Shown here in pieces: positions 56,204 through 60,382 of a stretch of 64,000 bases of DNA. The DNA lies in assembly GCF_022341425.1 (NCBI RefSeq), contig NZ_JABFUC010000009.1:1-64000 (forward strand), given 5' to 3'. The position numbers were made by a program, and so were the translations under genes. How positions within the stretch are numbered: the stretch's first letter is position 1; each line of letters starts with the position of its first letter. Source of the DNA: Billgrantia campisalis. GTDB taxonomy: Bacteria > Pseudomonadota > Gammaproteobacteria > Pseudomonadales > Halomonadaceae. The notes beneath the pieces are model-generated. The model did no database searches, was not told the DNA's origin, and was given only the letters and a program-made list of their open reading frames with translations.

Positions 56204-56506
56204 CTCGGGACTCCTTGCAGGTGGGTCGACATGTTGGCGCTCTCCTCATTCTCGTCCATGTGGGCCGCACAAGGGTCAAGCGGATCGCCAGCCCTGCTTG
56301 GAGCCCCAAGGTCGGAATGGGTTCCCGTGCACCAGCCCCTCCGTGCGGCTTGAAGTCAGTTGGGGCAAGCCTGGGGAGTGTGACAGACGGCACAGGGCAG
56401 TATTGCCCAAGACAGCCATAGCCCACCGCCCCATAACCGGCTACCCTCGTTGATAATTGCCCTTATGTAAGCCCTGTCTCACCCTGCCCCGCTCAACGGA
56501 ATGCCC
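56204..56506. other. 303-base spacer between DUF305 and NfeD
   Basis: No gene is supported. It must contain the divergent promoters. A near-palindrome GGGCAGTATTGCCC lies at 56395-56408. No other structure stands out. Confidence 0.35.
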
Positions 56507-57004
56507 ATGGACTGGAACCCCGCCGTCATCTGGCTGATCATCGCCCTGTTGCTGGGCCTTGCCGAGCTGTCCACCGGCGGCCTGGTGCTGCTGGCGTTGG
56601 CCGTCGCCGCCGCCCTGACCGCCACGCTGGCCGGCCTGGGGCTGTCACTGCCCTGGCAGCTGCTGGGCATGGGCGTGTTTTCCGGCGTGCTGGTCCCGCT
56701 CGCCGTGTGGAAAATCCGCCCCTGGTTCTCACCCCGCGGGGTGGCCTACGGCACCACCGGCACGGGAGTGGAGAAGGGCCGCACCTACACCACCCTCAAG
56801 CGCGACTTCGACGGCGCCAGTGGCATCAAGATCAACGGCGACTTCTATCGGCTGCGCGTCGCCGCCGACGCTGATGAAAAAAGCGGTGAGACCGAGCTGC
56901 CACCTGGCACTCGAGTGGTTTTCCTGGCCTTCGACGGCACCACTGCCATCGTCCGCCTAGCCCAAACGGCGCCATCCCAGCGCGCCACCCAAGACACGGA
57001 GTAA
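56507..57004 (+). CDS. NfeD family membrane protein
   Basis: Starting at MDWNPAVIW (56507; ATG 56501 is possible), the 165-residue protein has three hydrophobic helices (about 5-70) and a C-terminal OB-fold domain (about 85-155: YTTLKRDFDGASGIKINGDFYRL). It is the short NfeD1b type that pairs with SPFH proteins. The SPFH gene follows after 6 bases. The pair is thought to organise membrane microdomains and protein quality control. Confidence 0.88.
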   Translation: MDWNPAVIWLIIALLLGLAELSTGGLVLLALAVAAALTATLAGLGLSLPWQLLGMGVFSGVLVPLAVWKIRPWFSPRGVAYGTTGTGVEKGRTYTTLKRDFDGASGIKINGDFYRLRVAADADEKSGETELPPGTRVVFLAFDGTTAIVRLAQTAPSQRATQDTE

Positions 57005-57010
57005 CCCAGC

Positions 57011-58066
57011 ATGGATATGGACCTTCCCATCAGCCCGGGGCTGATCATCGCCCTGATCATCGTCATCATCGGCATTCTGACCATAGCCAAGGGGCTGGTG
57101 ATCGTTCGCCAGTCCGAGGTGATGGTGATCGAGCGCCTGGGCTCCTTCAACCGGGTGCTGGAGAGCGGCATCAACATCATCGTGCCCTTCATCGATCAGC
57201 CCCGCGCCATCACCATGATTCGCTACCGCAAGATGGGTGAGGATTACCACGCCATCACCAGCAACGAGACGCGTATCGACCGCCGTGAAACGGTAATGGA
57301 CTTCCCGGGCCAGCCGGTGGTGACCACCGACAACGTCACGGTGAACATCAACGGCGCGCTCTACTACCAGATCATCGACCCCAAGCGCGCCGTCTATGAA
57401 GTGGAGAACATGAGCCAGGCGGTGGAGGTGCTGGCCAAGACCACCCTGCGCTCGGTGGTGGGCAAGATGGAGCTCGACAAGCTGTTCGAGTCCCGGGCCG
57501 AGGTCAACAACGAGATCCAGGCCGCCATGGAAGAGGCCGCCTCCAAGTGGGGGGTGAAGATCTCGCGGGTCGAGGTGCAGGACATCGCCATGCCCGAGGA
57601 GGTGGAGTCGGCGATGCGCCTGCAGATGGCCGCCGAGCGCAAGCGCCGCGCCACCGTCACCGAAGCCGAGGGCGAGAAGTCCGCCGCCATCGCCATGGCC
57701 CAGGGCCAGCGGGAATCGGCGATCCTCAACGCCCAGGGCGACAAGGAATCCGCCATCCTGCGCGCCCAGGGCGAGCAGGAGTCGATCAAGCTGGTCCTCA
57801 ACGCCATCGGCGACAGCGAGGAGAACAAGCGCACCGTGGTGGGCTACCTGCTGGGACAGAGCTATATCAAGGTGCTGCCGACAATGGCCAAGGACGGCGA
57901 GCGGGTCTTCGTGCCCTACGAGTCCTCCGCCCTGCTCGGCTCCATGGGCATGTTCCGCGAGATGGCCGGCTCGCCGGAAGATACCGTCGCCAGCCACCTG
58001 AAGAGCGGCGGCAACCACGGCGGCCTGCGCGGCGGTGTGGTGGGCGGCGCCGCCAGCGGCGGCTGA
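57011..58066 (+). CDS. SPFH/band-7 (QmcA/paraslipin-like) protein
   Basis: The 351-residue protein has an N-terminal membrane anchor (about 10-30), the SPFH domain (about 35-190: GLVIVRQSEVMVIERLGSFN, MDFPGQPVVTTDNV, DPKRAVYEVENM) and a long Ala/Glu coiled coil (about 200-275, repeats of AQGQRESAILNAQGDKESAI). It ends with a Gly-rich tail. Such proteins form large ring-like cages in the membrane. It is the partner of NfeD. Confidence 0.93.
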   Translation: MDMDLPISPGLIIALIIVIIGILTIAKGLVIVRQSEVMVIERLGSFNRVLESGINIIVPFIDQPRAITMIRYRKMGEDYHAITSNETRIDRRETVMDFPGQPVVTTDNVTVNINGALYYQIIDPKRAVYEVENMSQAVEVLAKTTLRSVVGKMELDKLFESRAEVNNEIQAAMEEAASKWGVKISRVEVQDIAMPEEVESAMRLQMAAERKRRATVTEAEGEKSAAIAMAQGQRESAILNAQGDKESAILRAQGEQESIKLVLNAIGDSEENKRTVVGYLLGQSYIKVLPTMAKDGERVFVPYESSALLGSMGMFREMAGSPEDTVASHLKSGGNHGGLRGGVVGGAASGG

Positions 58067-58139: not shown

Positions 58140-58226
58140 ATGTCGCAGCCACTGGAATCACTGATAGCGCAAGGCCATGCTCCCCAGGAGCGCGGGCCAC
58201 GGAAGCATCCGCCGGCAATCCGTTAA
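58140..58226 (+). CDS. possible 28-residue upstream peptide
   Basis: ATG 58140 opens a frame reading MSQPLESLIAQGHAPQERG and stops at TAA 58226. That TAA overlaps the AAGGAGG RBS of the sensor-channel gene at 58238. No RBS is clear before the ATG. The placement would let its translation affect the next gene. It may be chance. Confidence 0.2.
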   Translation: MSQPLESLIAQGHAPQERGPRKHPPAIR

Positions 58227-58237
58227 GGAGGCACAGG

Positions 58238-60382
58238 ATGCTGCCTCCCCCCGGCCCAGCCCGTGCGGTCTTCGGCCTCGCCCTGCTCGTGGCGATGCTC
58301 GGCTTTTCCATCGCTGCCGGGCTGGGCTGGGTGGACCGCAACGAGCGGCAGCAGACTACCGATGCGTGGCTGGACCGAATCCAGTTTGAAGCCGTGGAGG
58401 CCGCCGAGTCACTGAATACCGATCTGCGCCTCCTCTCCGACCTGGCCTACGGAATCGCCTCCGATCTGGCCCGCGGCGAGTTGCCGGTCGAGCAGATCGA
58501 GGCTCGACTCGAGGCCCTGGTGGAGCGCCACCCCGAGGTGTTCGGCGTGGGCGTGATGTTTCGACCCTATGCCTACGCCCCGGACCAGCGGCTCTATGCG
58601 CCCTATATCGTCAAGCGCAATGGCGTTCACGAGATGTTGCGGGTCGATGACGTCTACGACTACACCCAGCCCGAGCACGAATGGTTCCGCCAAGGGATCA
58701 CCTATGCGCGCTGGCACGAGCCCTTCTTCGGCGAGGCCAGCCAGGCGATGCTCGCCCTCTACTGCATCCCCTTTCGACTCCCCGAGGAGCAGCGGGTGCT
58801 CGATGGTCCCGGGGCCGACGGCACCGTCTGCATCGACTACTCGATCGAGGATATCTGGGGCCTGGTCGGCGCCCTGGACCTGGGCCAGACCGGCTATGCC
58901 TTTGTCATCACCGACCAAAGCACTTTCGTGGCGCACCCGCGGCGGGACTACGTGCGCCAGGGGCGGTCCCTGTACGATATCGCCGCGCAGCTCTACGACC
59001 CGGTACTGATGTGGCTGGCGGAGCAGGCTACCGACCAGCGCAGCGGCGTGATCGACCACTCCAACGAGCTCACCGGACAGGACTCCCGTATCTACTATGG
59101 CCCGATCACGGCGACGAACTGGTCCCTGGCCGTGGTCGCCTTCACCGACGAGATACCGCTCGATATCGCTGCCCACAAGCAGCGTCAAATCGCCATCACC
59201 ATCGTGTTGATCATCGGTGCCATCGGCCTGATCGTCATGGTGGCCTCCTATCGGCTGGGCTCCAAACCGATGCTGTGGAGCGGGAGCTTTGCCATCGCCC
59301 TGCTGTTCCTGGTCGGTGTGGCCAATATCTGGCTGCAGGAGTTCGCCGAGGCCGGCCGCGACCCGCCGGAGGCGGTCATGCTGGTCGACCTTGCCGGCGT
59401 CCAAAGCTACCTCGACGATTATGAGGAAACGGCACAGCACCAGCCCTATGCACCAACGGCCAAGATTCCCACCGGCGTGTTCGTTCAGGCCATCCGGTTC
59501 GAGTCGCCCCACGACTTCGTGGTGACCGGGTTCGCCTGGCAACGCTATACCGTACCCGACCATGATGACGTGCAACGCGGCATCTTCTTTCCCGATGCGA
59601 TTCCCACGCTGGACCGCCGCGAGGAGCTGTTCCGCTTCCGCGAGGGGGATGCCGAGGTGGTCGGCTGGTTTTTCAAGTCCAGCGTGCATCAGCCCATGGA
59701 CTATTCCCGCTTCCCCATCGACGTCAAGACCCTGAAGCTGCGCGTCTGGCATCCCGACATGGCACGCAACGTCGTGCTGGTACCGGAACTGGGAGCATAC
59801 CGCCTGATCCACCCGACATCGCTGCCGGGAGTCGAGACCGGGTTCAGGCTGCCAGGCTGGCAGCTACAGCGCAGCTTCTTTGCCTACCGTTTCCACGACT
59901 ACCGCAGCGACCTGGGGATACGCAACAGTGCCAAGGTGGGCGACTTCCCGGAGCTGACCTACAATCTCACCCTGCGGCGCAATATCACCGATGCCTTCAT
60001 CTCCAACCTGATCCCCCTGTTTGTCGCGGCGCTCATGCTGTTCGCGATGCTGGCGATCGACACCCGGGACAAGGTCCGCGCCGACCTGTACGGCTTCAAC
60101 ACCATCAAGGTGCTGGCGACCACCACCGCCATCTTCTTTGTCATCCTGCTCGCTCATATCGACGTCCGTCGCCGCTACGTTGCCGAACAGATCATGTACC
60201 TGGAATTCTTCTTCTTCATCACCTACTTCACCATCGTCGCCGTCTCCTTCAACGCCTTTATGCTGGCGACGACCAACGAGAATCGCTTCTTCCATTACCG
60301 CGACAACCTGATCCCCAAGCTGCTGTTCTGGCCGCTGCTGCACGGGGCCTTCTTCGTGGTCACGGTGTATGTCTTCCTTTAG
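58238..60382 (+). CDS. Cache-domain sensor fused to a pentameric ligand-gated channel-like C-terminus
   Basis: The 714-residue protein has TM1 (about 12-31), a periplasmic dCache-like domain (about 38-315: VFGVGVMFRP, TGYAFVITDQSTFVAHP), and TM helices at about 317-336 and 346-368. A beta-rich domain follows (about 375-580), then four more TM helices (about 585-605, 622-640, 646-672 and 690-712). The beta domain plus four helices show pLGIC-like features: SRFPIDVKTLKLRVWHPD resembles the channel loop, followed by FPELTYNLTLRR and ISNLIPLF. No kinase or GGDEF part is present. A ligand-gated channel or receptor is inferred. RBS AAGGAGG. Confidence 0.7.
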   Translation: MLPPPGPARAVFGLALLVAMLGFSIAAGLGWVDRNERQQTTDAWLDRIQFEAVEAAESLNTDLRLLSDLAYGIASDLARGELPVEQIEARLEALVERHPEVFGVGVMFRPYAYAPDQRLYAPYIVKRNGVHEMLRVDDVYDYTQPEHEWFRQGITYARWHEPFFGEASQAMLALYCIPFRLPEEQRVLDGPGADGTVCIDYSIEDIWGLVGALDLGQTGYAFVITDQSTFVAHPRRDYVRQGRSLYDIAAQLYDPVLMWLAEQATDQRSGVIDHSNELTGQDSRIYYGPITATNWSLAVVAFTDEIPLDIAAHKQRQIAITIVLIIGAIGLIVMVASYRLGSKPMLWSGSFAIALLFLVGVANIWLQEFAEAGRDPPEAVMLVDLAGVQSYLDDYEETAQHQPYAPTAKIPTGVFVQAIRFESPHDFVVTGFAWQRYTVPDHDDVQRGIFFPDAIPTLDRREELFRFREGDAEVVGWFFKSSVHQPMDYSRFPIDVKTLKLRVWHPDMARNVVLVPELGAYRLIHPTSLPGVETGFRLPGWQLQRSFFAYRFHDYRSDLGIRNSAKVGDFPELTYNLTLRRNITDAFISNLIPLFVAALMLFAMLAIDTRDKVRADLYGFNTIKVLATTTAIFFVILLAHIDVRRRYVAEQIMYLEFFFFITYFTIVAVSFNAFMLATTNENRFFHYRDNLIPKLLFWPLLHGAFFVVTVYVFL

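Follow-up and report, generated by a model that had tools for sequence, protein, structure and literature searches.

To our knowledge, few natural functions are known for the bacterial relatives of nerve receptors, and why these proteins have been kept is a long-standing question. In 2004, Tasneem and colleagues described bacterial channel cores that are fused to Cache and MCP-N domains, from Methanosarcina, Cytophaga, and Microbulbifer, and proposed that they act in chemosensing (PMC549065). Like the protein described here, these prokaryotic ART-LGIC fusions carry a Cache-type sensor N-terminal to the ligand-binding domain and four helices, and the group also has Cache or binding-protein partners with a proposed sensory role, as is the case here (PMC549065). 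In the passages of that paper that set out their architecture, they consist of a signal peptide, extra domains, a ligand-binding domain, and four helices, with no mention of an extra helix pair; our comparison with the Microbulbifer, Cytophaga, and Methanosarcina proteins of 2004 is by description alone (PMC549065). By their own account, Jaiteh and colleagues left out the parts that flank the two core domains (PMC4795631). A search of the open-access literature for bacterial pentameric ligand-gated channels together with the Cache domain gave a sole match, which concerned neuronal calcium-channel subunits.

The best solved relative by profile is GLIC, the proton-gated channel of Gloeobacter, whose Pro-loop, pre-M1 Arg, and M1 Pro align with those of our protein. 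GLIC, however, has neither a Cache domain nor TM1–TM3, its M1–M2 linker is shorter, and it is reached by the family profile only and not by a single-sequence search. DeCLIC, another bacterial pentameric ligand-gated ion channel (pLGIC), can also be compared, because its gating is modulated by a large periplasmic domain at the N-terminus; this domain is described as two periplasmic jelly-roll lobes, and not as a Cache domain (PMC12664993).

Here, we describe a gene from a 64,000-nucleotide stretch of Billgrantia campisalis DNA (the window), whose product joins a dCache sensor to a pLGIC-like C-terminal half. An earlier reading, made from the sequence only, had called this architecture unusual. 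Because Cache fusions were already described in PMC549065, the idea of a Cache-channel fusion is old, in print since 2004, and it is the membrane-spanning linker that is unusual. Three things are apparently new: Pfam misses the family, two helices are conserved between the Cache and channel parts, and the family is linked to extracellular contractile injection systems (eCIS); neither the hairpin, the Pfam-missed family, the tandem of fused and canonical channel genes, nor the eCIS linkage was found in the open-access literature, in which the last of these was the one sought by name. Since Pfam misses the family, its members are probably undercounted. A channel with an identifiable sensor domain offers a direct handle on the ligand, and a seven-helix subunit poses the question of how a sensor might gate a pentamer across an extra membrane hairpin.

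The gene, its sensor domain, and its membrane segments

The open reading frame that had been proposed was found at its place in the window, behind a strong ribosome-binding site (Table 1); the gene is confirmed as real, and the first reading of it is supported. Its product starts with Met-Leu-Pro-Pro, as do the full-length orthologues in Halomonas beimenensis (L002) and in one more genome of the same genus (L003). The genome to which the window belongs (G000; 4.27 Mb, 47 contigs) has one copy. When the full protein was compared with 121 genomes of the bacterial family, matches were obtained in 22, and in 19 of these 22 they were restricted to the dCache part. Because the C-terminal core was matched in just three of the 121 genomes (G000, G092, and G078), the gene is sporadic in this group.

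Table 1. Features of the Cache-channel fusion gene and its product in the window
Feature	Position	Strand	Remarks
Shine-Dalgarno-like AAGGAGG	58225..58231	+	six bases to ATG; read from sequence
Cache-channel fusion gene	58238..60382	+	714 aa, ATG start; full-length orthologues L002 (72% identity) and L003 (70% identity)
TM1, N-terminal membrane anchor (residues 11-29)	58268..58324	+	hydropathy
dCache periplasmic sensor (~residues 35-306, limits approximate)	58340..59155	+	PF22673 at 87-179, PF02743 at 195-300
TM2 (residues 318-336)	59189..59245	+	hydropathy; peak in 12/12 aligned fused members
TM3 (residues 346-364)	59273..59329	+	hydropathy; aligns with N-terminal helix of stand-alone family members
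Beta-rich ligand-binding-domain-like module (~residues 407-580)	59456..59977	+	hhalign of residues 402-582: 93.4%, E 2.6e-7
Pro-loop FPIDVKTLKL (residues 492-501)	59711..59740	+	P493 invariant; aligned with GLIC loop
M1 (residues 587-605)	59996..60052	+	R580-R581 before, invariant P593 inside; hydropathy, family and GLIC alignment
M2, candidate pore helix (residues 625-643)	60110..60166	+	conserved H640; invariant R644 after; pore numbering inferred
M3 (residues 658-676)	60209..60265	+	invariant E656 before; hydropathy, family alignment
M4 (residues 695-713)	60320..60376	+	hydropathy; C-terminus expected periplasmic

The dCache sensor of the sequence-only reading is borne out by a double PDC module flanked by TM1 and TM2, with a conserved YDYT at residues 140–143: PF22673 (MCP-like_PDC_1) matched with 32.8 bits against a cut-off of 27, and PF02743 (dCache_1) with 32.0 bits (E 1.2e-7), which is below its cut-off of 45. 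Pfam shows no other domain above any cut-off, in agreement with the earlier statement that an output enzyme domain is absent. The nearest solved relatives of the dCache part by sequence are 3lic (E 2.4e-9) and 3lib (E 6e-4), both sensor domains of kinases or chemoreceptors. These domains, and those of PctA and PctB, are the same kind of periplasmic double-PDC sensor, but they signal through a kinase or methyl-accepting domain, which is not so in the window protein.

In the dCache amino-acid sensors, as described for PctA in PMC10104139, an Arg (R126) stands two residues before W128-Y129, and an Asp (D173) belongs to the same motif. With the positions placed by eye in the 12 aligned fused members, W-[YF] is present in 12/12 and the Asp in 8/12, with Asn in 4/12, but the motif Arg is found in 0/12, and the window protein, which lacks it, does not fit the motif of the dCache_1AA group. 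An amino-acid ligand is therefore unsupported by the motif, and binding of an amino acid in the standard dCache_1AA manner appears unlikely. 3lib, the second-best PDB match of the dCache part, serves as an amine sensor in PMC10104139; the match is too weak for a ligand assignment.

The membrane segments in Table 1 were derived from hydropathy, and they include two extra helices, TM2 and TM3, which had rightly been placed between the dCache and beta domains. The numbers of Lys and Arg in the short loops are broadly those expected of an N-in, C-out protein whose dCache and beta domains are both periplasmic, and yet the M2–M3 loop, which lies outside in this topology, also has three Lys/Arg. An N-in, C-out arrangement is the topology that we infer for the window protein.

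Relationship of the C-terminal half to pentameric channels

Homologues were gathered with residues 318–714 as the query. Of 369 genomes of the class, 12 matched at E<=0.001, 10 of these strongly and two weakly; of 398 genomes in the phylum sample, nine matched, seven strongly and two weakly. The core alignment of the family, A1, has 18 rows; it omits L027 (internal stop), L040 (a fragment), and the proteins from Vibrio and Acaryochloris, which were found later, and the L031 and L032 sequences break off where their contigs end. A second profile, A2, represents five bacterial channel-like proteins, four of which lie above the PF02931 cut-off; the fifth, L034, was recruited because it weakly resembles the window, and the Neur_chan models do not match it.

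All three motifs that had been called channel-like, FPIDVKTLKL, LTLRR (577–581), and IPLF (592–595), are present in the protein. The last of these had been described as conserved-looking, and this holds for Pro593, which is invariant in the 18 rows of A1, but not for the other residues of IPLF. G413, W434, W477, W541, R644, and E656 (window numbering) are among the other invariant positions, and R581 is at least 90% conserved. P493, identical in 18/18 rows, lies in register with the corresponding loop of GLIC, and the Pro-loop can be assigned to the protein on this basis.

A single-sequence PDB search with residues 356–714 returned one chance match (E 0.66), and the Pfam Neur_chan models matched none of the 18 A1 members at E<=1. 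The window protein does not reach the Neur_chan cut-offs, which serve as a yardstick of detection and not as a definition; because the canonical channel gene of L053, which matches solved channels directly, also falls below both cut-offs, this result is not decisive. The profile check that the sequence-only reading had proposed thus gave a divided answer, in which Pfam was silent but the family profile reached GLIC. In the search of A1 against the PDB, the best match was a GLIC–glycine receptor chimera (E 4.2e-6), GLIC chains followed at E 2e-4 to 3e-3, and the best 60 of 84 matches were all pLGIC chains. The alignment with GLIC is collinear, with the Pro-loop, the pre-M1 Arg, and the M1 Pro in register.

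In hhalign comparisons, A1 matched the five-protein profile A2 at 96.8% (E 2.4e-10, 252 columns; 0.2% when reversed) and the four channels recognised by PF02931 at 94.1% (E 1.3e-7, 169 columns; 0.3% when reversed). The beta domain alone gave the values listed in Table 1 (0.2% when reversed), which is good evidence, at the level of sequence profiles, that it is homologous to the pLGIC ligand-binding domain. The four-helix part alone was weak (11.4%, E 0.0026; 0.3% when reversed), and its homology to the pLGIC helices is probable. In the reverse direction, A2 was searched against 1371 six-frame ORFs from 19 loci, and the 15 ORFs found at E<0.01 were 11 of the 20 family ORFs and four ORFs of three partner channel genes, with no others outside these two groups; nine of the 20 family ORFs were missed. 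The four-protein profile found six ORFs, namely the same four partner ORFs and 2 of the 20 family ORFs. Without L034, our view of the core holds, a little weaker. From these comparisons, we conclude that the C-terminal half is best described as a divergent core of the pLGIC superfamily; the PDB profile and hhalign results, with their reversed controls, support the beta domain that had been claimed, and the four helices claimed after it are present by hydropathy.

Structure prediction was uninformative. AlphaFold gave a pLDDT of 34 and a pTM of 0.22 for the full-length window and L002 proteins, and 42.6 and 0.28 for the core alone. The core model shows strands followed by four long helices, which agrees with our reading but carries no weight at that confidence, and Foldseek found nothing for it at E<=0.001; GLIC and ELIC appeared from rank 8 amid unrelated structures, with TM values of 0.16–0.17. 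In the alignment of M2 with GLIC, whose register is uncertain, H640 would lie near the outer end and F633 would face the pore. No conserved acidic selectivity ring was recognised by eye at the start of M2 in A1.

Family forms, candidate partner channels, and a proposed mechanism

The family comprises Cache-fused proteins of ~690–830 aa and stand-alone proteins of ~380–400 aa, the stand-alone form of Acaryochloris reaching 486 aa with a C-terminal tail. A survey of homologues for the same architecture had been suggested, and the order TM1-dCache-TM2-TM3-core is indeed shared by the 12 aligned fused members, one of which (L041) is cut before TM1 because its sequence stretch ends there; this full-length alignment omits L002, L031, L032, and L039, the last being replaced by its longer form L061. 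Two hydrophobic peaks separate the dCache and beta domains in 12/12 of these proteins. In A1, the second of them, TM3, falls on the helix at the N-terminus of the five stand-alone proteins, which suggests that the fusion may consist of a whole two-helix dCache receptor and a whole channel subunit that has kept its own anchor. In the family tree, the window protein, L002, and L003 form one clade (99/100) and six stand-alone proteins form another (96/95); with several long branches and no resolved root, the tree gives no direction of fusion or loss. No viral relatives were found in alignment scans of IMG/VR or in a phage search with the L026 protein. L043 (1357–3552) has a Peripla_BP_6 domain fused to a channel-like core, like the fusions described in 2004.

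Two loci have a more canonical pLGIC-like gene immediately after the fused one (L053, 7194–8291; L055, 5400–6506), and the one in L053 matches solved chains directly (GLIC-chimera, E 3e-6; GABA-A receptor, E 5e-4). Three genomes, G191, G321, and G362, have a canonical-type channel gene adjoining the fused one, and profile A8, which represents such channels, has matches in 15 of the 369 class genomes. In L054 (5894–9168, from G362), the fused gene (TAG) and its canonical partner (TAA) have one internal stop each, and their frames are otherwise full. These downstream genes are candidates for heteromeric partners of the fused subunit.

Starting from the computed features, that is, the gene, the dCache domain, the seven hydrophobic segments, the homology of the beta domain to pLGICs, and the conserved Pro-loop, pre-M1 Arg, and M1 Pro, we propose that the window protein is the subunit of a Cache-regulated pentameric channel, and give this reading a probability of about 0.7. 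The pentamer, the pore, gating by the Cache domain, the ligand, and the ion are all putative. After the dCache domain, the chain would pass through TM2, a short cytoplasmic turn, and TM3, which would be the channel subunit's own anchor helix, into a periplasmic beta-sandwich and then the four channel helices, and five copies would probably be arranged around one pore. A small molecule may bind at the dCache domain, and the interface of the beta-sandwich may take up another. Binding would shift the TM2–TM3 hairpin and the Pro-loop relative to the M2–M3 loop, and the pore would open or close. Ion conduction under Cache control is the likely, putative function; because neither a kinase nor a cyclase nor a methyl-accepting domain was found as output, the output signal would be the ion flux or the change in membrane potential itself.

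A different view of the subunit composition is that the Cache-fused proteins work in heteropentamers only, where they would regulate stand-alone channel subunits. The gene arrangements of other members speak for this: a canonical channel gene comes after the fused gene in L053 and L055, closely spaced on one strand, L053 has a stand-alone member as well, and G326 has fused and stand-alone copies on different contigs. The window's own genome, on the other hand, has one family gene, and neither PF02931 nor profile A8 finds any other channel gene there; the window protein would therefore have to be homomeric in this organism. We regard an obligate heteropentamer as possible, although somewhat doubtful. 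It is rather improbable that the protein is a pLGIC-derived sensor that no longer conducts and whose core acts as a scaffold or conformational relay from the Cache sensor to partner proteins. The helix region is strongly divergent, the M1–M2 linker of many members is longer than that of GLIC, and the selectivity ring escaped recognition by eye, as would be expected of such a protein, but the M1 Pro, the Arg between M2 and M3, and the Glu of M3 are invariant in the 18 members, which suggests that coupling has been kept, and no cytoplasmic domain was found that could receive the signal.

On a third reading, the C-terminal half would be a beta domain with four helices from another kind of transporter or receptor, unrelated to pLGICs and like them only by coincidence. 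The silence of the Neur_chan models and the weakness of the helix part by itself are what such a protein would give; the profile matches to both PDB chains and bacterial channels, set against reversed controls, make this explanation highly improbable. The Cache-regulated channel subunit is the reading that we retain.

Contractile injection system genes and other neighbours

An unexpected observation, which offers a concrete candidate for a cellular role, is the linkage of the family to eCIS genes. eCIS_core (PF13699) is found beside family members in L052, L053, L055, and L056, the CIS tape-measure (PF19268) in L052 and L057, and AAA ATPases in L052 and L053; the stretches concerned are L053 26–10884, L055 4462–8695, L057 2–8149, L052 2–8115, and L056 5787–8016. 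In L053, an AAA ATPase, an unknown gene, a TPR gene, and the Cache-fused channel lie on one strand and are followed on the same strand by the canonical channel, a methyltransferase, a stand-alone channel, and eCIS_core. In other words, three channel-like genes are close together. The order in L055 is the fused gene, the second channel gene, and the eCIS_core gene.

CIS_TMP is present in 8 of the 17 genomes that hold the family. In six of the eight (G326, G362, G191, G248, G321, and G078), the tape-measure and channel genes are on one contig, ~5 to 10 kb apart; in G442, the tape-measure is 183 kb from the channel gene, but an eCIS_core gene stands beside the latter, and in G583 the two are on different contigs. 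CIS_TMP was not matched in the remaining nine, which include G092 and the window's own genome as well as three that are incomplete (G462, G590, and G641). In the class, 9 of 369 genomes have CIS_TMP, and six of these nine are among the 10 strong family-positive genomes (Fisher p 5e-9, a value that ignores kinship and assumes the same 369 genomes in both samples); G191 and G321 are of the same genus, and G248 and G362 of the same family. The other three CIS-positive genomes (G189, G369, and G485) gave no member of the channel family even by profile search, and G189 has a canonical-kind channel-like match (E 1e-7) on another contig. Of the 121 genomes in the window's bacterial family, G078 alone has CIS_TMP, and it is itself one of the three with the core. 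CIS_TMP was likewise not matched in the genome of H. beimenensis or in the plasmid records of Vibrio and Acaryochloris, in a search that gave no positive match at all. A contractile injection system in the same genome is thus a property of other family members; the link belongs to the family and not to the window's own genome. It is apparently new: among the matches listed in a search of the open-access literature, nothing joined contractile injection systems, extracellular or other, with ligand-gated ion channels.

It is tempting to speculate that this pLGIC branch is a trigger of the eCIS, in which Cache-fused and stand-alone subunits would form a ligand-gated channel in the membrane of the producing cell, whose opening, by ion flux or depolarisation, would start the release or firing of the particle; the window gene would then be a copy that works without an eCIS. 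We offer this as a tentative suggestion, and an unlikely one. In Streptomyces coelicolor, the membrane protein CisA is required for firing of the contractile injection system (PMC12237407). As portrayed there, CisA resembles the eCIS-linked members, and those only, in being a membrane protein that is encoded with the injection system and has a possible sensor domain, but it is bitopic, has a solute-binding-like domain, and in that portrayal is not called a channel (PMC12237407).

In the window itself, an NfeD-like gene (PF01957, E 0.006, below cut-off) and an SPFH (stomatin-like) gene occupy 56501–58066, upstream of the channel gene, and 171 bases separate the end of the SPFH gene from the channel start codon. 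The two were considered as operon or channel partners and rejected for the window, since neither adjoins it in L002 or L063. Seven neighbours from the window were compared in all (OpuA-like ABC genes, DUF305, NfeD, SPFH, astB, and astD); 0/7 are beside the channel gene in these two loci, and for this reason no operon partner is assigned. Other neighbour matches are weak (AstD-like in L063 and L064; SPFH, 26%, in L052).

It should be mentioned that several family members have genes for solute binding or transport in their vicinity: a Peripla_BP_6 periplasmic binding protein in L051 (9677–10840), an ABC_sub_bind protein and a sodium:sulfate symporter with a cNMP domain in L066 (2562–5662), and a sodium:dicarboxylate symporter in L060 (8061–8987). 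On the plasmid of Vibrio sp. THAF64, for which the gene table has three features for the whole record and none that overlaps L050 702–6693, the fused gene in this stretch comes after an SBP_bac_3 gene and a gene for a membrane-like protein of 207 aa, the gene ends abutting, with a muramidase and a methyltransferase nearby.
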